Assembly: GCF_003967015.1 (NCBI RefSeq)
Contig: NZ_AP017561.1
Location: forward strand, 62,001 to 126,000
Length of the DNA: 64,000 bases
DNA from: Pseudanabaena sp. ABRG5-3
Lineage (GTDB): Bacteria > Cyanobacteriota > Cyanobacteriia > Pseudanabaenales > Pseudanabaenaceae
Direction of reading: 5' to 3'
Below, in pieces: positions 22,406 to 41,690 of the stretch. Positions within the stretch are counted from its first letter, which is position 1; every line of letters starts with the position of its first letter. The notes beneath the pieces were generated by a model, which saw only the letters and a program-made list of their open reading frames with translations, was not told the origin of the DNA and did not search any database. Made by a program: the position numbers and the translations under genes.

Positions 22406-23422
22406 ATGGGCGACTGGAAAATTTTTAAAGGTAATGCTACTCCTCACGGCGATATCGATCGCTTGCCACCACCTCCAAATTGGCGTAAGTTTGCGCGGAT
22501 CGATGAAAAGTCCTTGGTGGAGTTAACTGAGGCTGTCCAGAATAGTGCGAATGCCGAGAAAACTAAGGAGCGCGGTAAGACTTTTAAAGTTCCACCCAAT
22601 GACACCGATTTAGCAAGTATTGTTAATGCTGCTTTGTACTTGCGTCGTCCTTTGTTAATTACGGGTAAACCAGGGACTGGCAAAACTTCTTTGGCTTATG
22701 CTGTTGCCTATGAATTACAGTTGGGACCAGTGTTGTTATGGCCGATCTCTACTCGTTCTACGCTTCAAGAAGGGTTATATCGCTATGATGCGATCGCCCG
22801 TTTGCAAGAGGTCAAAGATACAAGTCAGGAAGAATTAGCAAAGGATATTGGGCGATATATTCAATTGGGGGCGGTGGGTTCGGCTTTATTACCTTACAAG
22901 CGTCCTCGCGTGCTGTTGATTGATGAAGTGGATAAGAGTGACATTAACTTACCTAACGATCTCTTGAATCTGTTTGAGGAGGGAGAATTTGAGATTCCTG
23001 AACTAGCACGGCTGGCGAAACAGGCTAAGGAGGTGACGGTGCGGAGTTATGACGGGATGGATGTGACTATTCAGGAAGGACGGTTGCAATGTCATGCTTT
23101 TCCGTTCATCATCTTAACCAGTAATGGCGAACGGGATTTCCCGCCTGCATTTTTGCGACGGTGTTTGCGTCTGAATATGAAAGATCCTGATAAGGAGGCT
23201 TTGACTGATATTGTCCGATCGCATTTGGGAGATGAGGTGATTGCCCAAGCGGAGCCACTGATTGCGGAGTTTCTCAAAAAACGTGAGAATGGCGATCTAG
23301 CGCCCGATCAGTTGTTAAATGCAGTTTATCTGCTCACTCGCGATCCTAGTTCGGCAGTGGGCGATCGCGAAAAATTGACTGATGTACTCTTGAAGTATCT
23401 ATCGAGTGCGGAGGATCGATGA
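22406..23422 (+). CDS. MoxR-type AAA+ ATPase, 338 aa
   Basis: Walker A is ITGKPGTGKTSL with Lys93, Walker B is VLLIDEVDKSD, sensor 1 is FIILTSNGERDFP and the arginine-finger region is FLRRCLRL. These place it in the MoxR AAA+ group, which remodels vWA-domain partners. I chose the ATG at 22406 (AGGAG at 22391-22395, 10 bp spacing); a TTG three codons earlier is too close to that site. It overlaps the next gene by ATGA, so MoxR and its vWA partner are made in coupled fashion. It is predicted to be the NTP-dependent switch of the ternary system. Confidence 0.9.
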   Translation: MGDWKIFKGNATPHGDIDRLPPPPNWRKFARIDEKSLVELTEAVQNSANAEKTKERGKTFKVPPNDTDLASIVNAALYLRRPLLITGKPGTGKTSLAYAVAYELQLGPVLLWPISTRSTLQEGLYRYDAIARLQEVKDTSQEELAKDIGRYIQLGAVGSALLPYKRPRVLLIDEVDKSDINLPNDLLNLFEEGEFEIPELARLAKQAKEVTVRSYDGMDVTIQEGRLQCHAFPFIILTSNGERDFPPAFLRRCLRLNMKDPDKEALTDIVRSHLGDEVIAQAEPLIAEFLKKRENGDLAPDQLLNAVYLLTRDPSSAVGDREKLTDVLLKYLSSAEDR

Positions 23423-26400: not shown

Positions 26401-27204
26401 AAGACACAACCTACATATGGGACACTTCTATCGTTCTTAGCTGATCGCTTTGAAACACCATTTTTAGCAGTTGGAGATACTTTATGGTTTTACTTTGCTG
26501 GACATGGAATGAATTTTGAAGGTAGAGATTATTTGTTGCCTAGTGATGGTAATCCGCGCACTATTAAAACTGCAATTCCTATTAGTTATGTAACGGAGAG
26601 ATTACGGCGAAGTGGTGCAGATAACATAGTAATGTTGATTGATGGATGTTTCAGTGATGGATCGCAGCAGTTTAACACAGGCATTGGTGAAGAGATGCAA
26701 CAGGGCGTAATTATAGATGAGTCAAAGAAGCCTAACACAGGCGTTGGTATTGGTGAAGAGGAACAGACCCAGCAGGGTGTAATTACATTCTTTTCTTGCC
26801 GTCCTTCTCAGGTTTCTTATGAGATTGATGAGCTTCGGCAGGGGGCTTTTACAAAAGTTCTGTTGGAAGCATTGCGAATTCAAGGTGAAGGAAATTGTGC
26901 AACTGTAGAACGCTTTGCTCAATATCTGCGCCATCAAGTACCAAGACTGACGAGACGTTATAAAAATTATGAGCAAATACCTTATGCTGTAATTGAACCT
27001 GCAAGGATGTTACATTATATTCTGTTACCGAAATTTGCAAATTTGACAGATATTCAGTTACTTAAAGCAGATGCGCTCGAAGCTGAGGTAGAAGGTGATT
27101 TTATGCTAGCTTGGCAACTATGGATGCGGATAAATGTGGCAGCAAGTGGAACAGATATGCAAGCAATTAATGCTTTTCAGCGGTTGGCTCAAAAGCGATC
27201 ATAA
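23419..27204 (+). CDS. vWA - STAND/AAA-like - caspase fusion protein, 1261 aa
   Basis: Three modules lie in one chain. (1) Residues about 160-400 are a vWA domain with MIDAS motif DDSASM (172-177), of the SAV_2336-related type that partners MoxR. (2) Residues about 555-900 are an AAA-like STAND module common in cyanobacteria (VGGALPANAPSYIER; Walker A SRQMGKTSL with Lys604; Walker B IVIFIEEIDWLL). (3) Residues about 930-1215 are a caspase/metacaspase domain (CAVIIGINDYDEILPLRYA; His1029 in FAGHGMNFEGRDYLLP; Cys1077 in LIDGCFSDG, with DGC in place of the usual DAC). An insert after Cys1077 repeats NTG.G.EE..QQGVI, possibly an autoprocessing loop. The logic suggests MoxR-gated activation of a protease. 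Base composition falls sharply in G+C from about 25.0 kb, at the vWA-AAA boundary, hinting at a fusion. Confidence 0.88.
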   Translation: MIDNVVAALGLGLNLTDEEIADVLWLAVQMQQFGDGVISEQGDRNEALDNSVSNRESPKQPTQPLRNADRDRQDENKKDEQNFEVHSKNDQGGDRLTRRSDELQLKIPDARSLQKPLELARSLRPLMRRVPSQVNTLLDEEATVRRIAEEKIWCPVLRPALEPWLDLALVIDDSASMLMWRHTIAELQHFLSSYGVFRDVRVWRLGTDKAEKVCIYAGATASNRNGSPRSPSELIEANGRGLVLVVSDCIAPIWRNGAIASALQIWSRSGMVAILQMLPDWLWARTALGRGVAAQFSALAAGIPNYQLTTTTVSTWYDIDLATSIKIPVVTLEPEKFTAWAEMLAGKGGAWSAGIVFEPELFSVPEVAIELDGASELDAEDRVQSFRLTASPIARRLAGLLAAAPVISLPIVRILQSKVLTQSQPVHVAEVFLGGLLKPLSEITAKTNPNYVQYDFIEGVRDLLLESVPSSEIVNVVAVVSEYIAERLGISLEEFGAVIRNPRQVQNTKLVSQTRPFAILTAQILKRLGGEYVVFAEEVEQANINLIQRSTAVKTSNLNFKYLVGGALPANAPSYIERKCDRDLYDLLKNGKYCYVFNSRQMGKTSLMRRVAYKLQQNGTICAMFNPLSLRKEVTKRQWYVSAIYSLAKNGLNLEESFDLQSWIIERESISPEDIFSEFIETVVLQKIHVPIVIFIEEIDWLLSLSFSMDSFFDLVISFFEYRKIKPDFNRITFSLLGVVSPIDLIESVNTSNFNKTFTEVELEGFTLNEAMPLVQGFANKVDNPQRYLEAVIRWTGGMPFLTQRLLWLITQELETMDFPPKAVDKWIDKLVQDKIIDDWKNQDKIPHLTLIEGRLLHIVEENLRGRVLSCYQQILINGEIDDNHSQEILQLRLSGLVVSQNGKLRAYNPIYAAVFDNKWVEQQLGLNRIDQKKVSVRNCAVIIGINDYDEILPLRYAKNDAENMRDFFVQDLGVGHDHIYFFTDDSPRNTYGRKTQPTYGTLLSFLADRFETPFLAVGDTLWFYFAGHGMNFEGRDYLLPSDGNPRTIKTAIPISYVTERLRRSGADNIVMLIDGCFSDGSQQFNTGIGEEMQQGVIIDESKKPNTGVGIGEEEQTQQGVITFFSCRPSQVSYEIDELRQGAFTKVLLEALRIQGEGNCATVERFAQYLRHQVPRLTRRYKNYEQIPYAVIEPARMLHYILLPKFANLTDIQLLKADALEAEVEGDFMLAWQLWMRINVAASGTDMQAINAFQRLAQKRS

Positions 27205-27283
27205 AGAAAGAGTAACCTCATCTTTTTGTAAAATTTTAATCAGCGTTACTATTAAGAGCGACGACTCATAAAACCTAACCTCT

Positions 27284-28372
27284 ATGACTATCAAAACCCT
27301 CTGGGAACAAATCCAAAAAAGTCCCACCAAAACCCCCACCCGCCTCAAAATCCCCAACACCCGCAGCGATCATCGCCAAACCACCCCCACCCAACCCTTT
27401 CAACCCAACCAACAATACTTCCAAATCAGAATCAACGAACTATACCTATCAACCAGCCGTAAATGGTTTAGCGAATACGATCCCCTCGTCTTCGCCGCCA
27501 CCGAATTCATCTACGACAAAAAAGCCGAAACCGTTCCCTTTGTTGTTGGCCCCTCATTAATCGAAAAAAACGGACAAAAAGCACCCACAGGCGGCAGCAC
27601 CATCTTCTCCAATACCCGCGTCGCAGGACTCCATCCCTATCGCGGCGGCAGACTAACCCTATCCATCGTTCTCTATCGAGTAAAACGCAAAGACTACGCC
27701 CAAGGACTGCTAAAACTAATCGAAAGCGTATCCTCAGCCATCGACTTCTCCACCGCCCTCCGATCCTACACCAAAGTTGCAGGCGTACTCCTCACAGGCA
27801 TCGAAACCCTCTTTGGACTAGGCGACACCGAACCCGTCATCGCCATCCGCAAAGAATTTGACCCCAGCGCAGGCGACAACCTCGAACCCAGCTACTTTGC
27901 CCTCATCGACAAACCCGAATCAGAACTTAAAACCGAACAACTCTGGGTACGCGACAACCAACTCGTCTATGGCGCAAACTTAGCCGAAGCAAAACCCTTC
28001 CGAGAAGCAGATTTTGTCCTCTATAGCATCGTCCAAACCAGCGATCGTAACGACATCACCACCCTACCCTTCTATCCATTATTCGAGCGAGCCAAAGAAG
28101 CCGCACTCCAAGGCGATGATAAGAGTTGGGAAAGAGCCAAAGCAAACCTCCTGTCCTTACATCAAACCCTAGCCCTCAGCCCCGACCTTACCCCCACTCA
28201 AGCCAAACAACTCTTCGCAAATTTCCTTGAAGAAACCAGAGATGCTTACCGCACCGCCCAAGAACTAGGATCTTTAGGTTCAGACGAACTCGATCTCGGT
28301 TCCTTTGACGACGAAGCCAGCATTCAAGACAGCTTGAACAAAGCCATCCAGATTCTCGACCTCAAGTTCTAG
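27284..28372 (+). CDS. Unrecognised 362-aa protein paired with a caspase gene
   Basis: I do not recognise a family. The N-terminal 45 residues are Thr/Pro/Gln-rich and basic (SPTKTPTRLKIPN). Residues about 46-300 look like a compact alpha/beta protein (YFQIRINELYLSTSRKW, FVVGPSLIEKNG, LTLSIVLYRVKRKDYAQ). A hydrophobic stretch is at about 160-180 (VAGVLLTGIETLFGLG). The last 70 residues are helical and acidic. There is no signal peptide. The coding strand is C/A-rich, unlike the genes before and after. The stop lies 15 bp from the caspase start, so a functional pair (caspase substrate, chaperone or inhibitor) is an inference from position only. Confidence 0.7.
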   Translation: MTIKTLWEQIQKSPTKTPTRLKIPNTRSDHRQTTPTQPFQPNQQYFQIRINELYLSTSRKWFSEYDPLVFAATEFIYDKKAETVPFVVGPSLIEKNGQKAPTGGSTIFSNTRVAGLHPYRGGRLTLSIVLYRVKRKDYAQGLLKLIESVSSAIDFSTALRSYTKVAGVLLTGIETLFGLGDTEPVIAIRKEFDPSAGDNLEPSYFALIDKPESELKTEQLWVRDNQLVYGANLAEAKPFREADFVLYSIVQTSDRNDITTLPFYPLFERAKEAALQGDDKSWERAKANLLSLHQTLALSPDLTPTQAKQLFANFLEETRDAYRTAQELGSLGSDELDLGSFDDEASIQDSLNKAIQILDLKF

Positions 28373-28387
28373 CCTATTTAAACCACT

Positions 28388-29587
28388 ATGACATTCACAA
28401 ACGGATTTGCCCTCGTCATCGGTATCGGTACTTACGCCAACACCCCCAAACTCAACGTCCCAATTACCGCGCAAGATGCCAAGGAAATCGCTGAAGTCCT
28501 CAAAGATCAAAGTAAATGTGGCTATCCCGCCCAACAAGTGACCCTATTAAATGATGCTGAAGCAACCCGCGATCGCATTCTCCAAGAACTTGACGCGATC
28601 GCCCAAAAAGTCAGCGACAGCGATACATTTTTCCTGTTCTACAGTGGACATGGCGAATATGGCACTGATGGCTACTACCTGACCACCCACGACACTCAAC
28701 TTGAAAATAAAAAAGTTGTCACAGGAACTGGTATCAGCGAAAAAGAACTATTAGAAAAACTCCGCGCCATCAAAGCCAAGCGCACTTTCCTATTTTTCAA
28801 CGCCTGCCACTCAGGAGAAATCTCACCGCGATCGCTAGGTGATGAACAACCAGAAGAAAACACAGGTTCCAACATTCCCGATCGCTTATCTACAGCATTA
28901 CTCGGCACTGGCGAAGGACGGGTAGTAATTACCGCCTGTCGGGAAACCCAAAAATCCTACTTTTCCCCCAAAGAAGATTTAACCATCTTTGCCGATATTC
29001 TATCTGAAGGATTGCGAGGTCGCGGTATCGATTCCCGTAAAGGCTATATCAGCGCTTTCGATCTCTACGAGCATATCTATACCAATGTCAAACAAGAAGT
29101 AGAGAAACGCTTTGGTAAGTTTGGAGCAGTCCAAGAACCAGAATTAACGATTCTAAAAGGTGTAGGCGTAATGGCGATCGCCCTGCATCGTGGCAAAACC
29201 CCAGAAGGCGATTTATCAGAAAGCGATCGACCCTCTTCTCTCGGTGGAGCAGTCCGAGAAGTCGAACCTTCTGAAAGTCAACAAACACTCCATCAAATCC
29301 TCAGTGGCGAGATCAACCTTGCCGCAGGTAGAGATATTCAGAACGTCACGATTGGCAAGAGTACAGTAGTTACTCAACATTTCGGCGATGTAAACAATAT
29401 CAATACAGGTGGTGGCGACTATGCTGGCGGCAATATCGATAAGTCTCAAACCACCTATAATCGTACAGAGGTTGTGGCATCTGGTGATCGCTCAGTTGCG
29501 ACTCGAAATGCTCAAGGTACAACTATCATCACAGGGGATGGTAATATTTTTGGCAATGGCAATGTAGTACAAAAAAACGTGCCTTAA
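28388..29587 (+). CDS. Caspase-family (metacaspase-like) protease with a Gly/Asn-rich C-terminal module, 399 aa
   Basis: Residues 1-255 are a p20-type caspase domain: FALVIGIGTYAN, catalytic His88 in FYSGHGEYG and Cys140 in LFFNACHSGE. The C-terminal 120 residues are low-complexity and probably beta-helical: AGRDIQNVTIG, VTQHFGDVNNINTGGGDY, GGNIDKSQTTYN, TIITGDGNIFGNGN. The FGD..N.NTGGGD..GG.IDK stretch nearly repeats the N-terminus of the VMAP protein at 21.0 kb, suggesting a shared docking module. There is no signal peptide, so it is cytoplasmic. It is presumably an executioner cysteine protease activated within the operon's complex. Confidence 0.87.
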   Translation: MTFTNGFALVIGIGTYANTPKLNVPITAQDAKEIAEVLKDQSKCGYPAQQVTLLNDAEATRDRILQELDAIAQKVSDSDTFFLFYSGHGEYGTDGYYLTTHDTQLENKKVVTGTGISEKELLEKLRAIKAKRTFLFFNACHSGEISPRSLGDEQPEENTGSNIPDRLSTALLGTGEGRVVITACRETQKSYFSPKEDLTIFADILSEGLRGRGIDSRKGYISAFDLYEHIYTNVKQEVEKRFGKFGAVQEPELTILKGVGVMAIALHRGKTPEGDLSESDRPSSLGGAVREVEPSESQQTLHQILSGEINLAAGRDIQNVTIGKSTVVTQHFGDVNNINTGGGDYAGGNIDKSQTTYNRTEVVASGDRSVATRNAQGTTIITGDGNIFGNGNVVQKNVP

Positions 29588-29667
29588 ACAGCATTATTTT
29601 AGGGACTACCCAAATCCTTAGTATCCTCGACCCAATCCATAACAATAAAAATTAGGGTGTTACAGTT

Positions 29668-30996
29668 ATGTCAGATAAGTTAGAGATGCTCAAGGAAATT
29701 TTGAGTAAAAAACTACCACCTGAGCAGGTAGAGTCTCTAATGTCAGAATTAGCAATCGCATTTGGCAATGCTTCAGTTGGGGATAATTTGGACCTGATCA
29801 AGAAAATTTTGAGTAAAAAGCTACCACCTGAGCAAGTAGAGTCTCTAATATCAGACTTAGTGATTGCTTTTGGCAATGCTTCAGTGGCGATCAAGGGAGA
29901 TGCTACTGAAGCATTGATTCTCACAGGAAACCAGAATATTATTGGTGACAATAATCATTTTTTTATCACCTCTAACAACAAGCCAATTCAGTTTCAATCC
30001 ATAGAAATGCATAAACTAGAAATGCGTAAGAAATTAGAAGATTTCTATGACGATCCCAATTTAAACGCATTCAAGCCAAGATTAAAAATTCTTATAGAAG
30101 ATGTAGTATTTCTGCCTCAATACTCTGAAGTGTGTGAAATAATCATTAAAATTTTCCAAGGAATTAGCCAAGATTCTTATAAAAGACAGTCTCTTCAAAG
30201 TTCAATTATTCGTGCTAATCAAGGAGCTTACATTCAGTCTAATTCAAGTGAAAAAGAAATATTTGAAAGGAATAGGGATTTTATTTCTCATTTTATTGGT
30301 AAAACAGTACCAATTGTTACTCTAATTATGAATACCAATGAAGCAATTGAATTGACTCAAGAAATAATTTTCACTGAGTTTTATTATCCAGAAAATTTAT
30401 TAAATTACTTTAGAGAACTTCAAGTTATTCTAGAGAAAAATTTATTTGCTGATTGGATTAATCGATATAAGCAAACTCCTGAAGAATGGCAACCATTTGA
30501 TAGTGATTCAGAGAGTATTTCCAAAATAATTAGTCAGATACTGGATCAACCTGATTTGCCATTGTTTATTCCTATATTTATTGATATTCGTGTAATTAAT
30601 GAGCCACAGAATCGCAATACCCTAAAACAATTACGTGAGCATGGATGTATTTTAATAATTGATTCTATTTCTATTCAGCATCCTAAACTATTTAAGGCTT
30701 TTCATCAGTCAGCATTAGATATTAATCCCAAAACCTCTGTTATTACCTTGGTTCCAAATGATACTATTGATAAAACAATTCAAAATATGATTGGAATGAT
30801 TCAATTATCAACTTTAGATATGGAAATCAGTAAACGTCAGAATGATATTGGCGAGTTTGGAAAGTGCCAGAAATCTTCTAATAAAATCAAATTTCAACAA
30901 TGGTTGAGACATCAAATTGATACAGTTTATATTTCTAGAAATGATCACAAACAAAATATTTCTTCACTTTTTTTTCAACACTATAGTTCATATTAG
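29668..30996 (+). CDS. Unrecognised protein with a duplicated N-terminal helical unit, 442 aa
   Basis: A 36-residue unit occurs twice at residues about 6-77 (ILSKKLPPEQVESLMSELAIAFGNASV, quoted here only as ILSKKLPPEQVESL..), each a predicted helical hairpin. Next comes a Gly/Asn beta-type patch (LTGNQNIIGDNNHFFI), then about 300 residues of mixed helix and sheet with no motif I can name. The N-terminal duplication and beta patch resemble effector-associated adaptor regions in bacterial conflict proteins, but this is only analogy. It lies 11 bp before the ParA/NACHT gene, so it is probably made together with it. Confidence 0.65.
   Translation: MSDKLEMLKEILSKKLPPEQVESLMSELAIAFGNASVGDNLDLIKKILSKKLPPEQVESLISDLVIAFGNASVAIKGDATEALILTGNQNIIGDNNHFFITSNNKPIQFQSIEMHKLEMRKKLEDFYDDPNLNAFKPRLKILIEDVVFLPQYSEVCEIIIKIFQGISQDSYKRQSLQSSIIRANQGAYIQSNSSEKEIFERNRDFISHFIGKTVPIVTLIMNTNEAIELTQEIIFTEFYYPENLLNYFRELQVILEKNLFADWINRYKQTPEEWQPFDSDSESISKIISQILDQPDLPLFIPIFIDIRVINEPQNRNTLKQLREHGCILIIDSISIQHPKLFKAFHQSALDINPKTSVITLVPNDTIDKTIQNMIGMIQLSTLDMEISKRQNDIGEFGKCQKSSNKIKFQQWLRHQIDTVYISRNDHKQNISSLFFQHYSSY
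29683..29898 (+). repeat. Two tandem 108-bp coding repeats
   Basis: The second copy begins at 29791, 108 bp after the first (29683). Long stretches are identical between copies (for example AAACTACCACCTGAGCA versus AAGCTACCACCTGAGCA), so the duplication is fairly recent. Each copy encodes the 36-residue unit of the 442-aa protein. Confidence 0.85.
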
Positions 30997-31007
30997 CCAG
31001 TAAAGCG

Positions 31008-33482
31008 ATGATATACACATTTTACTCTTTTAAAGGTGGAACAGGTCGTTCAATGGCATTAGCTAACCTTGGCGAATTATTCTATCGTCTCGGTTTAAAG
31101 GTATTAATGATAGACTTTGATTTAGAAGCACCTGGTCTGGAGCGCTATTTTGACGTTCCTGAAGCTATCCATAAACCCACTGAAATATTGGAAAAGCGTG
31201 GTGTAATTGACTTATTAGTTTCTTATAAACAAATATGCTCTTTACCTCCTTTAAAGGTTAGTGTTGATAGAGATAATACATCAGATAGTAATAGTTCTTT
31301 CAATGAAGATAGCTTTCCTTTAAGTAATGGTTCATTAAACCAGTTTATTACTTCAATTTATGAACGTAAATCTGGAAATGAAGGCAAACTATCCTTGATT
31401 TCAGCAGGTCGTCGAGAAAAAGACGGTTTTAGTAATTATGCAAGTCGGGTACACACTTTTGATTGGAATGATTTTTATCTCAACTGGAACGGAGAAAAAT
31501 TCTTTGAATGGTTTATTAAGGAATTAAGATCATTTGATATTGTCTTAATAGACAGTCGTACAGGAATTAATGAAATGAGTGGTGTTTGCACTCATCATCT
31601 AGCTGATGGAGTAGTAATGTTTGTCACACCAAACCAGCAAAATATAGATGGTACTTTATCCATTGCTAAAAGCCTACAAAATCCAGAATTAATTAAAAAG
31701 GCTCGAAATGGAAGAAAGATATCTTTACTAGTTGTGCCTAGCCGTGTTGAGCAAAGTGAAAAAGTACTGCTTGATGAGTTTGAAGATGATTTTAACAAAC
31801 AATTGAAAGATTTAATTTCTTCAGAGATCAGTTTTAAAAGGAGTGCATTTATTGATTTAAAAATTCCTTATATTCCTTACTATGCTTATAAAGAAAAGAT
31901 TGCTTTACGGGAGTTTGAACGAGCTAGTGCTTCAGATCTAGTTGAATCTTATAGAAACTTGGCTCACATTTTAGCTAAATTAGGATCTAAAACAAGCCAT
32001 TTATATAAGTTGTCTTCAGTATTAAATTCATCTATTAAAACTCAATCTAAAATCCAAGAGCGAGATCTAAACACAATTATTAGCAAAATTATAGAAGGGC
32101 AATCTACAGAAGCTGAATTGTCTCGGCTAGGAGAAGCTTTAAGTAATGCCGATAGCAGACAATTGAATCTTCAATTGGGAAAATACAATGTTAATGTTGA
32201 AAAAGGGAAAGATATACATATCGGTGATGATAGTTATGCTGAGTGGGATAGCAAAGCTATAAAATCTATAGTCCAAGCAATTGCAGGAGATAAGCAAGCT
32301 ATTGAAAAAGCACTGCAACAACTATCACATATTCCTAGTCAATTTCAATCTCTTATTACAGATAAAACCGAAGGATTTGTTGGGCGTGAATATGTTTTTG
32401 ATGCTATCAATGCTTTTATAGCCAATAATTCTAATGGATATTTTACTATCATTGGTGATCCTGGACAGGGGAAAACCACACTTTTAGCAAAGTATGTACT
32501 AGATAATGACTATATTGCTCATTTCAACTTGTCTCTTCAAGGTCAGAATCGAGCCGATCAGTTCCTTGAAAGCTTATGTAATCAACTGATTAACCGTTAT
32601 CAACTTCCCTATGATCCGTTACCTTCTAATGCAACACAAGATGGAGAGTTCTTATCACAATTGTTAGATGAAGCTTCTCAAAATCGAAATGATCAGCCTA
32701 TTGTTATTGCCATTGACGCATTAGATGAAGTAGATCAAACTAGTTATCGAGATGCAGCTAATATTCTTTATCTTCCACCTTATTTACCTCATGGTGTATA
32801 TTTCATTCTTACCCGAAGAAGAGGAGTAGAAATACCCTTGACAGGTTTTACCTCTTCTCAATTGTTGGATTTATTTGACTATCAAATCGATAGCGAACGA
32901 GATGTCAGAACATATATTCAAAAACGTGTTAGTGGTAGTGAGCAATTACGCCTTCGCATAGAAGAACGAGGTGAAACAATTACAAGCTTTACGGATAAGA
33001 TCATCGAAAAATGTGAATGTAATTTCATATATTTGCGTTATATGTTACTCGATATTGAGACTGGCTTATATAAAGATTTAACCCTAGAAGGATTTCCTCA
33101 AGGTATACAGAGCTATTATGAGTTTCATTGGCGACAAATGGGAATGAAAAGCGACCCTTTACCTGTTGAAAAAATTAAGATTGCATATATTTTAGGAGAA
33201 GTTCGAGAACCAATTTCTCGAAGAAAAATTTGCGGTTTGTCTGGTGAAGAAGAATACACAGTCCAACAAGTATTGAATGAGTGGCAACAATTCTTACATG
33301 AATTTATTAGCGGAAGCGAGAAGTATTATAGTGTTTATCACTCAAGTTTCCACGATTTTTTACATCGTCAAGATATTTTAGAAAAGCATCCAGTGTCACT
33401 TCCAGATATACATCAGATTATTGCTAAAAATGAGTTAAAGGTTTGGCAGAAATTAAAAGATGTTTTGAGAAAAAATGATTAA
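31008..33482 (+). CDS. ParA/MinD-like plus NACHT STAND NTPase, 824 aa
   Basis: Residues 1-330 are a SIMIBI P-loop domain with a deviant Walker A, FKGGTGRSMAL (Lys9, Arg14 in place of the usual second Lys), and DFDLEAPGLERYF. This is the KGGxGR variant often attached to conflict proteins. A short beta patch (VEKGKDIHIGDDSY, about 400) links to a NACHT module (about 455-780): GDPGQGKTTL with Lys489, IVIAIDALDEVDQ as Walker B, and a winged-helix part ending YYSVYHSSFHDFLH. It lacks C-terminal sensor repeats; the expected APAF1-helical and WD40 parts are in the next gene, 11 bp downstream. I infer a two-chain STAND sensor. Confidence 0.87.
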   Translation: MIYTFYSFKGGTGRSMALANLGELFYRLGLKVLMIDFDLEAPGLERYFDVPEAIHKPTEILEKRGVIDLLVSYKQICSLPPLKVSVDRDNTSDSNSSFNEDSFPLSNGSLNQFITSIYERKSGNEGKLSLISAGRREKDGFSNYASRVHTFDWNDFYLNWNGEKFFEWFIKELRSFDIVLIDSRTGINEMSGVCTHHLADGVVMFVTPNQQNIDGTLSIAKSLQNPELIKKARNGRKISLLVVPSRVEQSEKVLLDEFEDDFNKQLKDLISSEISFKRSAFIDLKIPYIPYYAYKEKIALREFERASASDLVESYRNLAHILAKLGSKTSHLYKLSSVLNSSIKTQSKIQERDLNTIISKIIEGQSTEAELSRLGEALSNADSRQLNLQLGKYNVNVEKGKDIHIGDDSYAEWDSKAIKSIVQAIAGDKQAIEKALQQLSHIPSQFQSLITDKTEGFVGREYVFDAINAFIANNSNGYFTIIGDPGQGKTTLLAKYVLDNDYIAHFNLSLQGQNRADQFLESLCNQLINRYQLPYDPLPSNATQDGEFLSQLLDEASQNRNDQPIVIAIDALDEVDQTSYRDAANILYLPPYLPHGVYFILTRRRGVEIPLTGFTSSQLLDLFDYQIDSERDVRTYIQKRVSGSEQLRLRIEERGETITSFTDKIIEKCECNFIYLRYMLLDIETGLYKDLTLEGFPQGIQSYYEFHWRQMGMKSDPLPVEKIKIAYILGEVREPISRRKICGLSGEEEYTVQQVLNEWQQFLHEFISGSEKYYSVYHSSFHDFLHRQDILEKHPVSLPDIHQIIAKNELKVWQKLKDVLRKND

Positions 33483-33488
33483 AGGAGA
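33481..33488 (+). promoter_or_regulatory. Strong Shine-Dalgarno (AAAGGAGA) separating the NACHT and WD40 ORFs
   Basis: The site overlaps the stop of the NACHT gene and lies 6 bp before a TTG (33494) and 12 bp before an ATG (33500). Its presence argues that the WD40 protein is translated as its own chain rather than being the product of a sequencing or mutational frameshift. Confidence 0.6.
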
Positions 33489-33493
33489 TAAGT

Positions 33494-35722
33494 TTGAAGA
33501 TGGAGATCCCGCCACACTATCCGATGAATAGTTTCATACAAGAAGATTCCACTTACATCCTCCATCTTCCTTACCACCTTGCTAAGGCAAGCATGGGTGA
33601 AGAACTTTGCAAACTCCTGACAGATTTTGACTTCATCAATTATAAAACTACGACTTTATCTTCTCAATCTCTCATCGAAGACTACGATTTAGCACAAATC
33701 TCCAATATTCAAATCCCTAAAAAACAGAAAGAAAGTCTGAAATTAATTCAAGCTACAATAAACCTATCAAAACATGTTTTAGATGACGACAAGAAGCAGC
33801 TAGCAGGACAATTATTAGGGCGTTTGCTGTCTTTTGAAATACCAGAGATTCAGACCATGTTAGAACAAGCAAAACAACACCAACAAAAAGAACCTTGGCT
33901 GCGTCCTCTAACTTCTAGTCTCACGCCGCCTGGTGAACCATTACTAAGAACTCTCACTGGACATAATAACTGGGTAACAACAGCAGCAATTACGCCTGAT
34001 GGAGATAAATTTGTATCTGCTTCAGAAGATGCAACTGTAAAAATTTGGAATCTGACCAGTGGCAGCGTAATAAACACTCTCACTGGTCACAATAATTCGA
34101 TCAACGCTGTAGCGATCACACCTGACGGGAAAAAAATTATTTCTGCCTCTGACGATAAGACCCTCAAAATCTGGAATCTAGAGACAGGCGAGGAACTTCT
34201 TACCATTATTGGACATACAAAAAGTATACGGACTGTTGCTATTCATCCCGATGGAGAAATATTTATTTCTGGTTCAACAGACAATAGTTTAAAAGTTTGG
34301 GACATACAAACAGGGCAGGAACTGCATACTTTTATTGGACATGGTAATTCGATCAACTCTGTAGAGATCGAGCCAAGTGGAAAGATTTTTGTTTCCGCTT
34401 CAGATGATAAAACTGTAAAAATATGGGATTTACAAACAGGAAAAGTGCTACATGATTTAATCGGACATAGTGGTTCAGTGATGACGGTAGCAATCACTCC
34501 TGATGGGAACCGCGTTGTTTCTGGTTCTAGAGATAACACTTTAAAGATTTGGGATTTACATACAGGAAAAGAATTACATACAGTTACCGAACATATTGGC
34601 TCAGTGATGGCAGTAGCAATTACTCCCAATGGCAAGCAGGCTATTACAGGTTCTAATTCTGCGCTTCTAAATATTTGGGATTTAGAAACAGGAGCAAAAC
34701 TAAATACTTTGGATAGTCATACCTTATTTGTCAATGCAATTGCAATTACTCCAGATGGAAAGAAAGCTATTTCTGCCTCATCCGATATGACTCTTAAGGT
34801 GTGGGATTTACAAGCCGAAGTGTGTACCTTGACAATACATAGAGATTGGATAAAAGCAGTAACTATTACTGCTGATGGTAAATTAGCTGTCTCAGCTTCG
34901 GACGATCAAACGCTGAAAGTTTGGGATGTAGAGACTGGCAAGAAATTACATACGCTTACTGGGCATACAGGTCATGTCAATTCAGTCGTCACTACTCCAG
35001 ACAGCAAATTAGCTATTTCAGCTTCAGACGATCGCAGTCTTAAAGTGTGGGATTTGGATAGTGGCGTTGAACTTTGTACTTATGATGAACATTGTGATGC
35101 AGGAGAAGCCCTCGCAATTACCCCCGATGGACAAAATATTATTAGTGATGGCAAATCGGAAACGATAAAAGTCTACAACTTATCCAATGGTATTGAACTA
35201 TTAACCATTGAAAATGTCTATTCCATCGCCAAAATCGCTGTTACACCTGACGGCAAACAAGTAATCTCTACTTCGCAGAACAAAAATTTTAAAATCTGGG
35301 ATTTACAAAGTGGGATAGAATTACATAATTTTACTGGACATACTGCTTGGGTCAATGCTGTAGCGATCGCACCTGATGGGAAACTAGCAATCTCTGCATC
35401 AAATGACTACACTCTTAAAATCTGGGACTTGCAGACTAGAGAAGAGCTACATACCCTTGCTGGACATTCCTACTGGATATGGGCAGTAGCAGTTTGTCCT
35501 AACGGGAAATTTTTAGTTTCTGGTTCATGGGATAGAAGCCTCAAAGTTTGGGATTTACAAACTAGAAATTTAGTTGCCAGTTTCATAGGCGAGAGTGAAA
35601 TAGATGCTGTAGCTATTTCCCCAGATGGGATGACAATAGTTGCTGGGGAACGTTCAGGACGTTTACATTTTCTAAGATTAGAAGGGTTTGATAAATTCCG
35701 AACACAATTCCATGTTACCTAA
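33494..35722 (+). CDS. APAF1-helical-like linker plus 14 WD40 repeats, 742 aa
   Basis: The first 150 residues contain LPYHLAKASMGEELCKLLTDF and SLIEDYDLA, which resemble the APAF1-type helical region that normally follows NACHT in a single protein. From about 155 on I count 14 WD40 units (GH..V..VAITPDGK..ISAS.D.TLKIWDL.TG), enough for two seven-blade propellers. Units 6, 8, 10, 11 and 14 are more degenerate. Propellers act as ligand sensors or assembly platforms. With the ParA-NACHT chain upstream, this reconstructs a bacterial apoptosome-like STAND protein in two polypeptides. The TTG start is chosen by spacing from the upstream SD; the ATG two codons later is the alternative. Confidence 0.9.
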   Translation: MKMEIPPHYPMNSFIQEDSTYILHLPYHLAKASMGEELCKLLTDFDFINYKTTTLSSQSLIEDYDLAQISNIQIPKKQKESLKLIQATINLSKHVLDDDKKQLAGQLLGRLLSFEIPEIQTMLEQAKQHQQKEPWLRPLTSSLTPPGEPLLRTLTGHNNWVTTAAITPDGDKFVSASEDATVKIWNLTSGSVINTLTGHNNSINAVAITPDGKKIISASDDKTLKIWNLETGEELLTIIGHTKSIRTVAIHPDGEIFISGSTDNSLKVWDIQTGQELHTFIGHGNSINSVEIEPSGKIFVSASDDKTVKIWDLQTGKVLHDLIGHSGSVMTVAITPDGNRVVSGSRDNTLKIWDLHTGKELHTVTEHIGSVMAVAITPNGKQAITGSNSALLNIWDLETGAKLNTLDSHTLFVNAIAITPDGKKAISASSDMTLKVWDLQAEVCTLTIHRDWIKAVTITADGKLAVSASDDQTLKVWDVETGKKLHTLTGHTGHVNSVVTTPDSKLAISASDDRSLKVWDLDSGVELCTYDEHCDAGEALAITPDGQNIISDGKSETIKVYNLSNGIELLTIENVYSIAKIAVTPDGKQVISTSQNKNFKIWDLQSGIELHNFTGHTAWVNAVAIAPDGKLAISASNDYTLKIWDLQTREELHTLAGHSYWIWAVAVCPNGKFLVSGSWDRSLKVWDLQTRNLVASFIGESEIDAVAISPDGMTIVAGERSGRLHFLRLEGFDKFRTQFHVT

Positions 35723-35771
35723 CTTTACCAGTTTTTATGACGTTGCATAATTTTATCTTATGGCGTTTTGA

Positions 35772-35882
35772 GATCGCAAGGAACGTTACATCGAGCAGAT
35801 GCGCCAAGCCTCAGCCGAAGTGCATCTCGTCTCCTTCGCCGATAAACTCGACAACCTCCGCTCCACCCACGCCCTACTCCAA
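35772..35882 (+). pseudogene. HD-domain protein remnant, part 1
   Basis: After an in-frame TGA the frame reads DRKERYIEQMRQASAEVHLV and SFADKLDNLRSTHALLQ, up to the IS junction at 35883. ADKLDNLRS is the C-terminal half of an HD phosphohydrolase motif as in small (p)ppGpp hydrolase-like HD proteins. The N-terminal half with the first His and HD pair is missing. Parts 2 and 3 follow after the two insertion sequences. Confidence 0.7.
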
Positions 35883-37607
35883 CCCACATTCCGCTCGTAA
35901 TGGAAAGGTAAAATAATTAACGAAAGGCAAGGAGAAAGCCAAAAAGGAGGAAAGAATAATTAACAGCCTAAATACAGAGATGAGAGTATCGAACCTAGAC
36001 CATCTAGGAATCGTGGCAGGAATCATTGATGAGATAGGAATCGAGGAAGAAATAAACACGATAATCGGGAGAAGCTCAAGAGAAAAAGTAAGCGCAGGAG
36101 TAATTGTCAAAGCCATGCTACTGAATGGATTAGGATTTGTATCAGCCCCCCTGTATATGTTTAGTAAATTTTTTGAAGGAAAAGCAACCGAGCACTTATT
36201 GGGGGAAGGGATAACAGCCGAACAAATCAATGATGACCGCATCGGCAAAGTACTGGATGACTTACATGAAGCAGGACTGAGTGAAACATTTTTAGGAATC
36301 AGCCTGAAAGCAGTAGCAAAATATGAAATCAAGGTAGAAACAGGACATATAGACTCAACATCATTTCATGTAGATGGGGAATATGGCAGAGAGGAAGAAG
36401 GGAGTATCGAAATCACCCATGGATATTCACGAGACCATCGACCCGACCTGAAGCAATTTATGATGAACCTTATCTGTGTAGGAGACGGGGACATCCCCGT
36501 GATGATGGAGGTAGTAAGTGGGAATCAAGCCGACAAAGCAAGATTTGCAGGACTGTTACAAGAATTCAAAGAACAGTGGACATTTGAGGGAATATGCGTA
36601 GGCGATGCTGCGCTATACAGTGAAGAAAATCTGGTAGCAATGACAGGACTAAAATGGCTAACCAGAGTGCCATTGAGCGTCAAAACCGCCAGTGAATTGG
36701 TGTCAAGCACAACTGACCTAAAAGAAAGTAAATTTAAGGGATACAGTACAGTCGAATCTGTGAGTGAGTATGGTGGGGTAAGACAGAGATGGATTTTAGT
36801 TGATAGCCAAGCAAGACGTAAATCAGACATCAAAAAGTTAGACAAAAAGCTTGAGCAAGTCCAGCAAAACTGTCATCAAGATTTACAGACTCTGTCGGGA
36901 CAAGATTTTTCCTGTGCTGCCGACGCGATCGCTGCTGCTGAAAAATTATCAACCCAGATGAAATGGCATCAACTCGACCATATTCAGACAGTAGAAAAAC
37001 CCCATTATGCGAAACGGGGTAAGCCACAACCTGGTGCTATAACCACCAGCATTAGTTATCGGATTACTGCAACGGTGAGACCTATAGACTCAGAAATCTT
37101 GGCTCAGAGACAGCGCTGTGGCAGGTTTATTTTAGCCACGAATATTCTTGATTCCTTACAATTCACGGCTGATGATGCTTTACGGGAATACAAGTCTCAG
37201 CAGGGTACTGAGCGTGGTTTTCGTTTCCTCAAAGATCCTTTGTTTTTTACTTCTAGTGTTTTTCTCAAGTCTGCTAAACGCATTGAGGCTTTGGGCATGA
37301 TTATGGCGCTTTGCTTGCTCGTTTATAATTTAGCCCAACGACAACTCAGACTTGCCTTAGCTCTCTCTCAAGATACTATTCCCAATCAATTGGGTAAACC
37401 CACTAATTCTCCGACTTTGCGTTGGGTTTTTCAATGTTTTATGGCGGTTCATTTAGGTTCTTTTCAGGGACTCTCTCAAGTTGTTAATTTGTCTCCCACT
37501 CGTCTTCACATTCTAAATTTCTTGGCTCCTGCTTGCCAACGCTACTATTTGCTCCCTGCTCCTGTTTTCTAATTCTTTTTCTTATTCCTTTACGAGCGGA
37601 ATGTGGG
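35883..37607. mobile_element. IS1634-like insertion sequence
   Basis: Terminal inverted repeats CCCACATTCCGCTCGTAA at 35883 and its complement ending at 37607 bound a 1725-bp element with one transposase gene. The flanks show only an imperfect 5-bp repeat (TCCAA/TACAA), so the target duplication has decayed or is absent. It is inserted in the HD-domain gene remnant. Confidence 0.88.
35980..37572 (+). CDS. IS1634-family transposase, 530 aa
   Basis: MRVSNLDHLGIVAGIIDEIGI and the following NGLGFVSAPLYMFSKFF are the N-terminal signature of IS1634 transposases (DUF4277-type region). The DDE core includes TGHIDSTSFHVDGEY, ICVGDAALYSEEN and QQGTERGFRFLKDP, the last carrying the catalytic Glu. The length is normal with no internal stop, so it may be active. 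Confidence 0.9.
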   Translation: MRVSNLDHLGIVAGIIDEIGIEEEINTIIGRSSREKVSAGVIVKAMLLNGLGFVSAPLYMFSKFFEGKATEHLLGEGITAEQINDDRIGKVLDDLHEAGLSETFLGISLKAVAKYEIKVETGHIDSTSFHVDGEYGREEEGSIEITHGYSRDHRPDLKQFMMNLICVGDGDIPVMMEVVSGNQADKARFAGLLQEFKEQWTFEGICVGDAALYSEENLVAMTGLKWLTRVPLSVKTASELVSSTTDLKESKFKGYSTVESVSEYGGVRQRWILVDSQARRKSDIKKLDKKLEQVQQNCHQDLQTLSGQDFSCAADAIAAAEKLSTQMKWHQLDHIQTVEKPHYAKRGKPQPGAITTSISYRITATVRPIDSEILAQRQRCGRFILATNILDSLQFTADDALREYKSQQGTERGFRFLKDPLFFTSSVFLKSAKRIEALGMIMALCLLVYNLAQRQLRLALALSQDTIPNQLGKPTNSPTLRWVFQCFMAVHLGSFQGLSQVVNLSPTRLHILNFLAPACQRYYLLPAPVF

Positions 37608-37654: not shown

Positions 37655-38281
37655 CTAAAGAGAGGCTACAGATAGAGCCTCTAGGATAGAAGCTCTACCA
37701 ACAATAGAAGCAATAACAGATTGAGTCATTATTTGTAGTCGTTGTTGGATTAATAAACGTAATTCATCAAGATCTTGAGGCAACATCCAGCGCAAGCCCC
37801 TCTTGAGGTGTAACCAAACCCGTTCGATAGGATTGAGTTCAGGGGAATGGGAGGGTTGAAACATTAAAATGATGTTTTTGGGAATGCGTAAACGCTTGGC
37901 ACGGTGACAAGCAGCTTGATCCAGTTGCATAATCAAAATGCTGTTGGCAAAATGTTGAGCCACAAGGTCAAGAAAAACTTGAAAGCAATCAGTATTGAGG
38001 TGAGTAAACTCATAGAAGAAACTATCACCCGTAGCGGGTTCGACAATGCCATAGAGGTAGGTGGCTTTAAACTGCCATTGCACTTTTCCTCTGGGTTTAA
38101 CGCCGCAGGTCGTTATTTTGCGACCACTGATAGTTTTGAGTCCGATACGGGTTTCATCCTGACAAAAGAACCGTACTTTCCCAGTTAATCCCAGTACAGA
38201 AATCGCAAACCAAGCCAGCATGGCTAGGTTCTCAGAGAGTTTTTTTAAAGGCAGCAACTTGTTCTTGGTTTTGACTGCCAC
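37655..38281 (-). CDS. IS630 transposase, catalytic part (orfB), 208 aa
   Basis: The DDE core is seen in RFFCQDETRIGLKT (first Asp), ILIMQLDQAACHRAK (second Asp) and HSPELNPIERVWLHLKR (catalytic Glu). No separate start is convincing. The product is probably reached by frameshifting from orfA at a run of seven A (minus strand, 38240-38246). Confidence 0.85.
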   Translation of the reverse strand: MAVKTKNKLLPLKKLSENLAMLAWFAISVLGLTGKVRFFCQDETRIGLKTISGRKITTCGVKPRGKVQWQFKATYLYGIVEPATGDSFFYEFTHLNTDCFQVFLDLVAQHFANSILIMQLDQAACHRAKRLRIPKNIILMFQPSHSPELNPIERVWLHLKRGLRWMLPQDLDELRLLIQQRLQIMTQSVIASIVGRASILEALSVASL

Positions 38282-38723
38282 TGATAGGACGGGCTACTTT
38301 TGGTGATGCTTTGAGCCGATATTTTACTAATTTATGCACTGTTTTGTATTTGGCAACTATCCCCAGTTGCTGTTCCAACCACTGACATATCTCAGCATAG
38401 TCATTGAATCCTTCTTCTTCATGTAAGCGTTTATCAAGAGCTTGCTGCGCCCATTGCGGAATACTGGGTTGTTTTCCCACTCTCGGTTTATGTTTCAAGA
38501 TTTCTGTCAGCCCACCATTGCGGTATGCCTTTGCCCATTCTTGTACAGTTACTCGATGTCTGCCCAAGATTTCAGATGCATCTTGGATCGTTAAGGCTTG
38601 TTTGCTTTTCAGCAGATACAACAGTTGTATTCTCTCTTTATCTGATGCTGTTTTCTGTTGTCCTAGCAGCTTTTTTAGCTCTTCTTCACTTTCAGTAATA
38701 TTTAGCTTGTACACTCCTGACAT
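38232..38723 (-). CDS. IS630 transposase, DNA-binding part (orfA), 163 aa
   Basis: Helix-turn-helix blocks (LTIQDASEILGRHRVTVQEW, YAEICQWLEQQLGI) form the N-terminal DNA-binding half. The frame ends QVAAFKKTL, then stop. The seven-A run just before would join it to orfB by a +1 (or -2) shift or by transcriptional slippage. The start is ATG at 38723. Confidence 0.85.
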   Translation of the reverse strand: MSGVYKLNITESEEELKKLLGQQKTASDKERIQLLYLLKSKQALTIQDASEILGRHRVTVQEWAKAYRNGGLTEILKHKPRVGKQPSIPQWAQQALDKRLHEEEGFNDYAEICQWLEQQLGIVAKYKTVHKLVKYRLKASPKVARPISGSQNQEQVAAFKKTL

Positions 38724-38909: not shown

Positions 38910-41690
38910 TTACAAGCCATTGCCAATCAAGATAAAAGAAGCCCAATAGTAGGGATGACTGAGGTTATTGGCGACATCATTGGGAATTCCTTGGCGAATG
39001 CGTTGCTCGATCGCTACCATCTGCCCTCTACTACCAGCAACATTTTTGTAATCTCCTGTAATCAAGGCTATTTGAGCTTGACGGAGGGCTTCGGCTTTGG
39101 TGATGGCGTTATTGGCGAGAGTAGCATAGAAGGTATTCATTAGGGCTTGCGTACCACTGTCATTAACTTTCCAGAGGGAGGCGATCGCGGCTCTTGCGCC
39201 TGTGGTTTGCATCAAGTAGCCGAAACCGAGGATTTCTGCACCTGTGCCGAAGTTGCCGCCTACGCCTGTCTCGCAAGCACTGAGAACGAAGAGGTCTACT
39301 TTTTTGAGGGAACCAAATGCACCTTCTTTAATATCGGTAAGGGAAATGCGATCGCCGTTGCCAAACAGAATGAATGATTTTTCGGGTTGACCTTTGAGGA
39401 AGGCGGCATGGGTGGCGAAATGGACGATCGCATAGTCATCCATTTTCGGTTTGGTGGCTTTGAAGCTGAAGCCTTCATCGCGAAGTTGGGTAGTTTCAGA
39501 AATAGTTTCCGCGAGTTTGCTTACTTCCATTTCGGCGTATGGTAAACCCGCAAAGTTGAACTGCTCGTCACCGACCGCAAAGTTATGTTTTTTGCCAGAG
39601 GTGGTATAGGCTCCTGCGAGGACAGATAGCTCGCGTTGGGGTTTGGTGTTGAGGTCGGTGAGGCTGGCGGCGGTGATATTGTTAACGCGATAGCGTTGGG
39701 TTAGCCATTGTTTGCCGTCATGGAGTGCGGCGAGGGGAATGTAGCGTAGTTGTCCATCTGGGGCATAGATGATGGTTTTGGTGTTGGCGGTATTGAGGTC
39801 TTTTTCGATGGGTTTAATCAGCCAGTCATAGAGTTTTTGGGCGGGTTTGGTTGCGTCAGTGCGGGGATTTTCGAGAGCAGAACGGAAGTCAATGATGGTT
39901 TGGTTGAGTTCTTTGCTGGTGACGTTGACGGTGCGGCGGATCGGTGGGGAGTAGGGGGTGACGAGGACTAGTTCGAGGCGGTTTTCGAGGATTAATGGAT
40001 AGAGGAGGACTGCCTCTTGTTGGAGGTTACGAAGGTTGTCTTGTAGGGCGTTGAATTCGCTGAGTCTGCCTAATAGGTCTTGTTGGTTGAAGGCGATCGC
40101 TTCTAGTTTTTTTAGTAGTATTTTTACTTCGTTGCTGTCTATAAATTTGATAAATTCTTTGACCAGTTCAGTTTGCTGTTGGTCGAGTTGAGCGATGCGT
40201 TGCTCTTGAGCGATCGTGCGTTCTTTTGGTTTGATGCGGCGGAGTTCAGTGAGTTCTTTGCCGATGGCTACGGCTTGGTCAATGAGTTTTTGATAGCCTT
40301 GGTTGATTTGTTGTTCAGGTGGGAGGTTTTCGATGCCGCGCTCAGTGTCAGAGTTGCTACGCACACCACGTAAAAAATCTTCTAGTTCCTGCACTTTGAG
40401 CAAATCAAGAACTCGCTGAGCCTCTAGAACACGGTTTTTCTGAAGTAGTAAATCAGCTAGGTGTCGATAAGTATCAGAGACCTTCGCTGTATAGGATTCT
40501 TGTAATGTTCTTGGTAATTTCGATAAATCTTTACGAATTGTTTCAGTAACATTAACAGATTGCTTGAAAAACAGAATTGCTAACTCTATTTGATTTTGCT
40601 TTTCTAGTACTCTCCCAATATCATTTAAGGATTTGATTTCATCTTCACGATTGCCAATTTCTTTACGAATAATCAAACTTTGCTGGTATGAGTTAAGAGC
40701 ACAAATATAGTCATAACGGTTTTCACATTCAATTCCTCTATTGCTAATTCCAAATGCTTCTTTATCCCTTGCTCCAGATTCATGAAAGAATTGTATAAAT
40801 TTTTCCGTGTCGATCTTACCGAGAGCGCTTAGTACAATCAGCTCAAGATCTCTATTACCATTCTCTCTGGCTATAGCAAGACTTTGTTTCCAGTATAAAG
40901 CCGCTTGTTCTACATTTTCGGAAATATTTCCTAGTCTTAATAAAACTAATGCTTCATCACTTCTATCTTCAAGTTGTTTTACTATTTTTAAACTTTCTTG
41001 ATAAGACAGAGACATTTGCTTGCGATCTCCAAGTTGTCCATATAAGTCACCAATATCCATCCAAATTCTTCCCTGTTCTCTTAAATCCAGAATTTCTTGA
41101 GAAATCTTCAAGCTTTGCTGTAATATCTCAATTGCCTTGGTGTATTTAGCCTGATTATGATACTCATTTGCTAAAGCTCTAAGGGCTTGTGATTCTGTAC
41201 GACGATCACCTACCCTTCGAGAAACTATTAAACTCTGTTCATATGACTTAATTGCATTATTAGAATTCCCTTGTCCACTATAAACACTACCAGTTGCATA
41301 TAAAGCCAAGGATTCCATATCAGGATTATTAATTTGTCTTGCAGTAGATAAGCCTTCTTCACAATAGCTAAGAGCTTGCTTATACTCTGACAAATTAGAA
41401 TATGCAAAGCAAATATTACTTAAAGTCAGGCTGACTTGAATTAGATTATTAGATTTTCGATAAGCAGATAGAGCTTGCAACCATAATTCCACTGCTCCTT
41501 GATAATTCCCAGCTTTGTACATTTGCCTCCCCTGTCTATACAAATCATCTTCTACAGCTAAAGAGATTTGAGTGGGTTTTTCAGCTATGAAAGTTTTTGC
41601 TTTTACATGCTCAGTTTGTTGTAAAAGAGAAACAATAAAAAATGTAATTGTTAATAGAATTTTAAAATATTGTTTTTTCAAATACTGCAT
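38910..41690 (-). CDS. TPR-CHAT protease, exported, 926 aa
   Basis: A signal peptide (KILLTITFFIVSLL) is followed by about eight tetratricopeptide repeats to residue 400 and a coiled-coil linker. The C-terminal CHAT (caspase HetF-associated with TPRs) domain is at about 620-926, with His761 in HFATHAAF and Cys806 in VLSACETG. CHAT proteins are caspase-clan cysteine peptidases, and TPRs act as sensor or regulatory scaffold. The TPRs are more diverged from one another here than in the other four copies, and G+C is lower in the TPR-coding part. It is the last gene of the minus-strand run, ending 2 bp from the HD remnant. Confidence 0.88.
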   Translation of the reverse strand: MQYLKKQYFKILLTITFFIVSLLQQTEHVKAKTFIAEKPTQISLAVEDDLYRQGRQMYKAGNYQGAVELWLQALSAYRKSNNLIQVSLTLSNICFAYSNLSEYKQALSYCEEGLSTARQINNPDMESLALYATGSVYSGQGNSNNAIKSYEQSLIVSRRVGDRRTESQALRALANEYHNQAKYTKAIEILQQSLKISQEILDLREQGRIWMDIGDLYGQLGDRKQMSLSYQESLKIVKQLEDRSDEALVLLRLGNISENVEQAALYWKQSLAIARENGNRDLELIVLSALGKIDTEKFIQFFHESGARDKEAFGISNRGIECENRYDYICALNSYQQSLIIRKEIGNREDEIKSLNDIGRVLEKQNQIELAILFFKQSVNVTETIRKDLSKLPRTLQESYTAKVSDTYRHLADLLLQKNRVLEAQRVLDLLKVQELEDFLRGVRSNSDTERGIENLPPEQQINQGYQKLIDQAVAIGKELTELRRIKPKERTIAQEQRIAQLDQQQTELVKEFIKFIDSNEVKILLKKLEAIAFNQQDLLGRLSEFNALQDNLRNLQQEAVLLYPLILENRLELVLVTPYSPPIRRTVNVTSKELNQTIIDFRSALENPRTDATKPAQKLYDWLIKPIEKDLNTANTKTIIYAPDGQLRYIPLAALHDGKQWLTQRYRVNNITAASLTDLNTKPQRELSVLAGAYTTSGKKHNFAVGDEQFNFAGLPYAEMEVSKLAETISETTQLRDEGFSFKATKPKMDDYAIVHFATHAAFLKGQPEKSFILFGNGDRISLTDIKEGAFGSLKKVDLFVLSACETGVGGNFGTGAEILGFGYLMQTTGARAAIASLWKVNDSGTQALMNTFYATLANNAITKAEALRQAQIALITGDYKNVAGSRGQMVAIEQRIRQGIPNDVANNLSHPYYWASFILIGNGL

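Follow-up and report, generated by a model that had tools for sequence, protein, structure and literature searches.

The question raised by this locus is whether a STAND protein whose NTPase and WD40 parts lie in two adjacent genes works as a receptor of two chains. The locus was examined within a 64,000-nucleotide stretch of Pseudanabaena sp. ABRG5-3 DNA (NZ_AP017561.1, positions 62,001 to 126,000), referred to here as the window, and loci retrieved for comparison are given L numbers. Two open reading frames on the same strand, 11 bp apart, were found to encode a NACHT protein (chain 1, the motor, or NACHT-A) and a helical domain followed by WD40 repeats (chain 2, the sensor). An earlier note, made from the sequence alone, had placed these parts in two genes, and this agrees with the two frames recovered and with the same break elsewhere. 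The features of the pair, in window coordinates, are as follows.

31008..33482, + strand: chain 1 (motor, NACHT-A), ORF of 824 aa
Chain 1, aa 2-223: KGGVGR SIMIBI-type domain (NCBIfam AAA_KGGVGR NF047398, E 7.4e-43)
Chain 1, aa 350-425: EAD10 (Pfam PF19954, E 9.9e-22)
Chain 1, aa about 450-790: NACHT core up to the winged-helix motif
33494..35722, + strand: chain 2 (sensor), 742 aa from TTG 33494; other starts at ATG 33500 and ATG 33524
About 33542-33958, + strand: putative APAF-1 HD2-like helical domain (HEL), the N-terminal ~140 aa of chain 2

The motor and sensor chains

Chain 1 was compared with a NACHT-A set of 82 proteins, the window included, which was obtained by profile scans of retrieved loci chosen by NACHT similarity. 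The N-terminal ParA-like KGGxGR domain named in the earlier note corresponds to the NF047398 match; EAD10 was absent from its description. The best Pfam models for the NACHT core were NPHP3_N, AAA_16 and TANC1 lid (aa 457-686). The match of the window chain to the Pfam NACHT model itself was weaker than E 0.001, a threshold that 38 of the 82 family members pass. Similarly, NB-ARC gave no match at E<=0.001 in chain 1 of the window and was matched in nine of the 82, with a best E of 5.1e-6. Walker motifs A (GDPGQGKT) and B (DALDE) are both intact, the winged-helix His motif reads YHSSFHDFL, and the chain ends about 40 residues past the conserved YHxSFxDFL motif. Across the family the Walker-A Lys is present in 81 of 82 rows, the remaining row being gapped, and the Walker-B Glu in all 82. 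The NACHT alignment, run as a profile against the PDB, gave no match at E<=0.01, and AF2 single-sequence models, built from the window sequence only, were unusable (mean pLDDT 43 for the HEL domain and 40 for the NACHT part).

Chain 2 carries 14 WD40 motifs at a spacing of 40-42 residues, 13 of them clear and one degenerate, in accordance with the 14 blades counted previously. These repeats gave clear Pfam matches, whereas the HD2 likeness of the HEL domain ahead of them is marginal. When the HEL family profile was run against the PDB, the top match was to APAF-1 residues 484-550 (whole-sequence E 0.009, domain E 0.036), which we take to lie within HD2, and six of the 11 rows at E<=10 were APAF-1. 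The earlier note's APAF1-helical linker corresponds, at this marginal level, to the helical domain at the head of chain 2, which does sit at the place expected of the domain next after a WHD. APAF-1 is laid out as CARD-NB-ARC-HD1-WHD-HD2-WD40, and the chain break in the window would fall at about its passage from WHD to HD2.

The two-chain state across the family

It had been supposed that these parts form one polypeptide in most homologues, and a check of homologues for one-chain and two-chain forms had been proposed. This comparison reversed the expectation. A separate HEL gene follows 78 of the 81 other NACHT-A genes, making two chains the rule in this family; none of the 81 is joined to HEL in a single chain, and the one-chain forms encountered belong to distant proteins. 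The 78 two-chain loci come from 64 genomes and one plasmid, with near-copies included (e.g. L053-L056 and L118/L119). Outside this count stand L128, in which HEL is separate from NACHT-A and fused to a second NACHT (NACHT-B, see below), L156, which reaches the end of its record, and L157 from Rhizobium, in which the neighbour of NACHT-A is an 890-aa protein without HEL.

With sensor starts picked by script as the start codon closest to the position expected from HEL, the sensor starts at most 20 bp from the NACHT stop in 71 of the 78 loci, and the genes overlap in 52. Beyond ±20 bp were L050, L057, L061 and L078 at 128-261 bp, of which L057 and L078 look broken, and L117, L120 and L121 at 79-190 bp, distances that possibly arise from the choice of start since the raw ORFs overlap in L120 and L121. 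An SD-like 4-mer precedes the sensor start in 61 of the 71 close junctions, against a mean of 15% elsewhere in the same NACHT genes; because of this enrichment and the tight or overlapping junctions, stop-start translational coupling of the motor and sensor genes is suggested. First sensors shorter than 450 aa (12 of 80) and NACHT-A ORFs shorter than 400 aa (five of 82) were also seen, some of them truncated at the end of a contig and others decayed in appearance. The L047 sensor had no Pfam WD40 match and the L123 sensor a single weak one, and these may carry other repeat types on the same dock.

A HEL search of 194 cyanobacterial genomes located HEL in 19 genomes and 29 places at E<=1e-30 among the matches listed, none of the 29 being fused to an NTPase; the profile was built from two-chain sensors, so that one-chain forms are under-sampled, and at most 21 candidates per genome were scored. 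Weaker matches contained one one-chain protein (L183) and possibly a second (L188). The one-chain relatives (L153, L155, L160-L163 and L183) are distant or have another P-loop domain. L155, on the Chloroflexota plasmid plas-ZRK, is a DUF4062-annotated NACHT-HEL-WD40 single chain, L153 is an NB-ARC-annotated single chain with HEL-WD40, and L160-L163 are of the P-loop-HEL kind. In the window's own genome, where 13 of 19 Pfam NACHT places were examined, L176 and L177 are one-chain P-loop proteins with WD40-like motifs and without HEL. Judged from gene layout, a family of cyanobacterial loci has conserved this division into two chains. Leipe and colleagues reportedly named an Npun2340/2341 STAND family in 2004, which may touch these genes. 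No description of separate NACHT and WD40 chains was found in the titles and abstract openings listed by searches of the open PMC literature; the body text of PMC8195603, PMC7159879, PMC10907252, PMC5587647 or PMC13174449 may hold a mention.

A probable split STAND switch

We consider it probable, at roughly two in three, that the pair forms a split, heteromeric STAND switch of the NLR/apoptosome-like type, in which the propeller chain docks onto a NACHT motor made as a protein of its own, gates it and frees EAD-linked effectors. Chain 1 would be the motor, with KGGVGR and EAD10 as its N-terminal output modules, and chain 2 the sensor, its HD2-like domain docking on the winged-helix end of NACHT and bearing two WD40 propellers. 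Translational coupling would let the chains meet during synthesis, and the propeller chain would keep the motor off. Ligand binding is predicted to release or remodel the propeller chain, upon which NACHT would swap nucleotide and oligomerise; the clustered EAD10/KGGVGR modules would then draw in effectors, among which may be the caspase-like proteases encoded in this gene run, and the infected cell would be killed or arrested. Because the sensor is a separate chain, one motor could serve several sensors. EAD-based effector recruitment appears as a prediction in parts of PMC7159879 and PMC8195603.

The alternative that survives best is that the genes are mere neighbours, NACHT-A acting alone and HEL-WD40 having another job or serving as a scaffold. 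HEL-WD40 genes do occur without NACHT-A in the examined flanks of L158 (twice), L159, L164, L178, L179, L180 and L182, as judged solely on retrieved loci and, for L182, on an upstream flank of only 1.7 kb. This explanation is nevertheless unlikely in view of the tight gene coupling in 71 of 78 loci, the position of HEL behind a P-loop NTPase in a single chain in L153, L155, L160-L163 and L183, and a chain boundary lying about at the WHD/HD2 boundary of APAF-1.

Sensor arrays and the second NACHT

Two or three HEL genes stand behind one NACHT in nine of 79 two-chain loci (the 80 loci of the array scan minus the one-chain L153); the near relative L113 has three, and L073 is another array locus. 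When sensors of one array were compared in pairs, HEL showed greater similarity than the remainder of the chain in 12 of 13 cases; the repeat alignment is loose, and we regard HEL conservation within arrays as suggestive. Exchange of partners between sensors and motors gains circumstantial support from these arrays, from the HEL-WD40 genes without NACHT-A and from the likeness of HEL within arrays. The orphan HEL-WD40 genes of L159, L178 and L179 share an alike setting, downstream of a gene of ~850 aa (DUF3769 in L159).

A second NACHT with little or no N-terminal extension, NACHT-B, follows the sensors in 38 of the 79 loci (e.g. L060, L062, L064-L068, L071-L073 and L146-L152) and is additionally present as the fusion in L128. 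The Walker-A Lys is kept in 39 of 40 rows and the Walker-B Glu in none of 37 alignable rows, the 40 rows including two fragments that are not NACHT-B, namely an 83-aa ORF of L060 and the upstream ORF of L078. In a quick tree with long branches flagged, NACHT-B formed one clade (35 rows, SH-aLRT 100). Its motifs point to a likely role as a dedicated hydrolysis-deficient partner. NACHT-B was not found in the window, which sits in a ten-row clade without it. A broader proposal, possible if somewhat doubtful, is that several interchangeable propeller chains with a conserved HD2-like dock act in trans as gates of a single NACHT motor and that, in about half of the family, a hydrolysis-dead NACHT-B co-assembles with this motor and gates it as well. 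The sensor repertoire of such a combinatorial apoptosome would grow by sensor genes, not by whole receptors.

Gene neighbourhood and candidate output modules

The pair closes a run of eight genes (21046-35722), all on the same strand and never more than 80 bp apart. The six upstream genes are as follows.

21046-22377, + strand: VMAP-C protein
22397-23422, + strand: MoxR-like AAA protein
23419-27204, + strand: AAA_35 and caspase protein, with a vWA-like DDSASM motif by inspection
27284..28372, + strand: 362-aa protein of no assigned kind, in the same co-directional run
28388..29587, + strand: caspase-like C14 peptidase, candidate effector (NF047832 match below the model cut-off)
29668..30996, + strand: KGGVGR-domain partner gene, 442 aa, whose homologues in other bacteria directly precede KGGVGR genes

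A VMAP-type ternary system (21046-27204, +) lies just upstream of the STAND pair, and Pfam vWA gave no match in its AAA_35-caspase protein. In the caspase-like protein at 28388..29587 the dyad His and Cys are present by inspection. A two-seed profile detected caspases in the examined flanks of five of 82 NACHT-A loci, one of them on the opposite strand, and so a caspase cannot be the general output; in the window, L044, L045 and L046 a caspase gene shares the strand of NACHT-A and precedes it by one or two genes. EAD-linked conflict systems have a known EAD in the core protein and further copies in genes nearby; EAD10 is present in window chain 1, and extra copies of it recur beside near relatives, alone and as EAD10-VMAP in L044, as EAD10-CHAT in L114 and as EAD10-DUF928 in L113, whereas none was found in the window's own neighbour genes. 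In L044, EAD10 is common to the NACHT protein, a small protein and the downstream VMAP protein, with a caspase upstream.

Homologues of the partner gene stand directly upstream of KGGVGR genes in L039, L040, L042, L043 and L049, and weakly so in L041. In L039, L040, L043 and L049 the partner overlaps KGGVGR by 4 bp if KGGVGR starts at the conserved Met, and at its N-terminus the partner has EAD1 (L049) or DUF4062 (L042 and L043). With its interchangeable N-termini, this pairing of partner gene and KGGVGR ATPase looks like a two-gene conflict module; no paper on a 'KGGVGR' module was found in the open PMC literature. Since such pairs stand as genes of their own elsewhere, in the window two modules of two genes each appear to have been united through a fusion of KGGVGR with EAD10-NACHT. 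The L039 partner copy has a weak FxsC_Cterm match (E 2.1e-5, below cut-off). The window's partner gene opens with two similar copies of ~35 aa (29668-29890) with a weak FliG_N match below cut-off, which may be an unclassified adaptor domain.

Mobile elements flank this island. On one side is an IS66 transposase (18383-19738), near a truncated FMN-dependent dehydrogenase (20138-20746, - strand; ~200 aa, profile positions 3-166 of 350). Past the sensor gene are a DUF4277/DDE transposase (35980-37572) and a DDE_3 transposase in two overlapping ORFs (37655-38723), which is presumably IS630-like. A remnant resembling an HD-domain protein was seen by eye at about 35770-35900, between the sensor gene and the transposase, and a TPR-CHAT protein (38910-41690, - strand) lies beyond the transposases.

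Domain matches among the 82 NACHT-A proteins include HTH_26 (17), NNH5 (13), EAD10 (7), HEPN_Swt1 (2) and EAD4 (1), and a CbiA-type match was found in one. The HTH_26 matches would suit a switch that is regulatory, acting for example in transcription or development in filamentous cyanobacteria, and not in death or defence. We think this improbable, given the EAD10, NNH5, HEPN_Swt1 and EAD4 modules of other NACHT-A proteins, the caspase genes and VMAP ternary system beside the window locus, and the patchy distribution of the family. The preferred reading is a split switch with a putative role in defence.

The junction between the two genes

The break itself was inspected in the window and compared with that in relatives.

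33475..33531, + strand: junction, with two 8-bp overlap motifs, the SD-like AAAGGAGA and an 18-codon ORF

The nearest relatives have an 8-bp overlap of the sensor gene with the NACHT stop (ATGAGTGA and similar), and their sensors begin M/V/L-[SN]-x-F, for which the homologous window start is ATG 33524. The window has one 8-bp overlap motif, ATGATTAA at 33475-33482, covering the NACHT stop, and a second, ATGAATAG at 33524-33531, at the start that matches the relatives; the two are joined by the 18-codon ORF. This ORF was first read as a damaged NACHT or sensor end, a reading that was set aside; the motifs fit several histories. The SD-like AAAGGAGA at 33481-33488 overlaps the TAA stop of chain 1. 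An SD-like 4-mer lies ahead of TTG 33494 and ATG 33500 and none lies ahead of ATG 33524, so that all three are candidate sensor starts; whichever is used, the chains are separate. The ribosome binding site that the earlier note assigned to the sensor gene corresponds to this SD-like 4-mer, and it is nothing special to the window, being shared with most close junctions. With its 11-bp gap and extra 18-codon ORF the window junction is unlike that of the relatives, and its coupling could be weaker. No closer copy was found in 26 genomes of the genus or 38 of the order, and the best relative among 217 genomes of another family was 69% identical, so that the window junction lacks a near-identical comparison. 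Scans of viral contigs found no relative.

These peculiarities, namely a sensor start that differs from the relatives', a short open frame between the genes and no near-identical relative among the genomes searched, could be taken for a sequencing error or a recent frameshift or pseudogene that splits a one-chain gene, but with the same break in 78 loci of differing junction type, no NACHT-A-HEL fusion found in the clade and intact catalytic motifs, there is very little chance of this. Programmed ribosomal frameshifting to a fused protein, which might draw support from the shortness of the overlaps and from AAAAAAT at 33470-33476 in the window, is just as implausible: the sensor lies in frame class 1, 2 or 0 relative to NACHT in 46, 25 and seven of the 78 loci, so that frameshifting cannot explain the family, in 26 of the 78 loci the genes are spaced apart or abut with an intervening stop codon, and at the window junction the -1 frame runs straight into a stop (33476-33478) and the +1 frame into one at 33529-33531, neither joining the ORFs.

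Comparison with known systems

Like the APAF-1 apoptosome, the window pair has the order NTPase, WHD, putative HD2-like domain and two propellers, with caspases nearby as neighbour genes. It differs in having NACHT in place of NB-ARC and EAD10 and KGGVGR in place of CARD, for which no match was found in window chain 1, and in being divided, at about the WHD/HD2 passage, into two polypeptides. Judged by Pfam (NPHP3_N, TANC1 lid), the NTPase comes closest to that of the NWD1/NWD2/TEP1/NPHP3-type proteins and L155, with which the NACHT-helical-WD40 order is shared. Of the features of such a STAND NACHT, Walker A, the Walker B acid and the winged-helix His motif are present in the window, whereas sensor repeats in the same chain are absent. 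Those proteins, whose layout is given in parts of PMC13174449, and L155 are single chains with an N-terminal DUF4062, unlike the two-chain, KGGVGR-EAD10 arrangement here.

With bacterial NACHT/Avs proteins the pair shares a STAND NTPase core, the logic of N-terminal output and C-terminal sensor, and a partial PADLOC Avs1b match. According to parts of PMC10907252, characterised antiphage proteins of this kind are usually tripartite single proteins; in the window family, which may likewise act against phage, the sensor is instead a separate gene and sometimes several. Unlike Swarozyc (DUF4062 NADase), the locus has no DUF4062 among the Pfam matches of the nine genes scanned (21046-35722 and 38910-41690). 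The EAD10 adaptor and the upstream VMAP-C, MoxR-like and caspase genes resemble the EAD/VMAP ternary conflict systems set out in parts of Kaur et al. (PMC7159879, PMC8195603), but the window pair is a STAND motor with a propeller and not a MoxR-vWA core.

Implications

Apoptosomes and NLRs are understood to become active when a sensor that is tethered to the motor within one polypeptide is released. With sensor and motor as separate chains, the sensor could be supplied, withdrawn or exchanged, which would open the autoinhibitory interface to direct tests, and the Glu-less NACHT-B would provide a natural test of the role of ATP hydrolysis in STAND assemblies. A way in which bacteria might widen their recognition repertoire is suggested by the loci where several sensors follow one motor.
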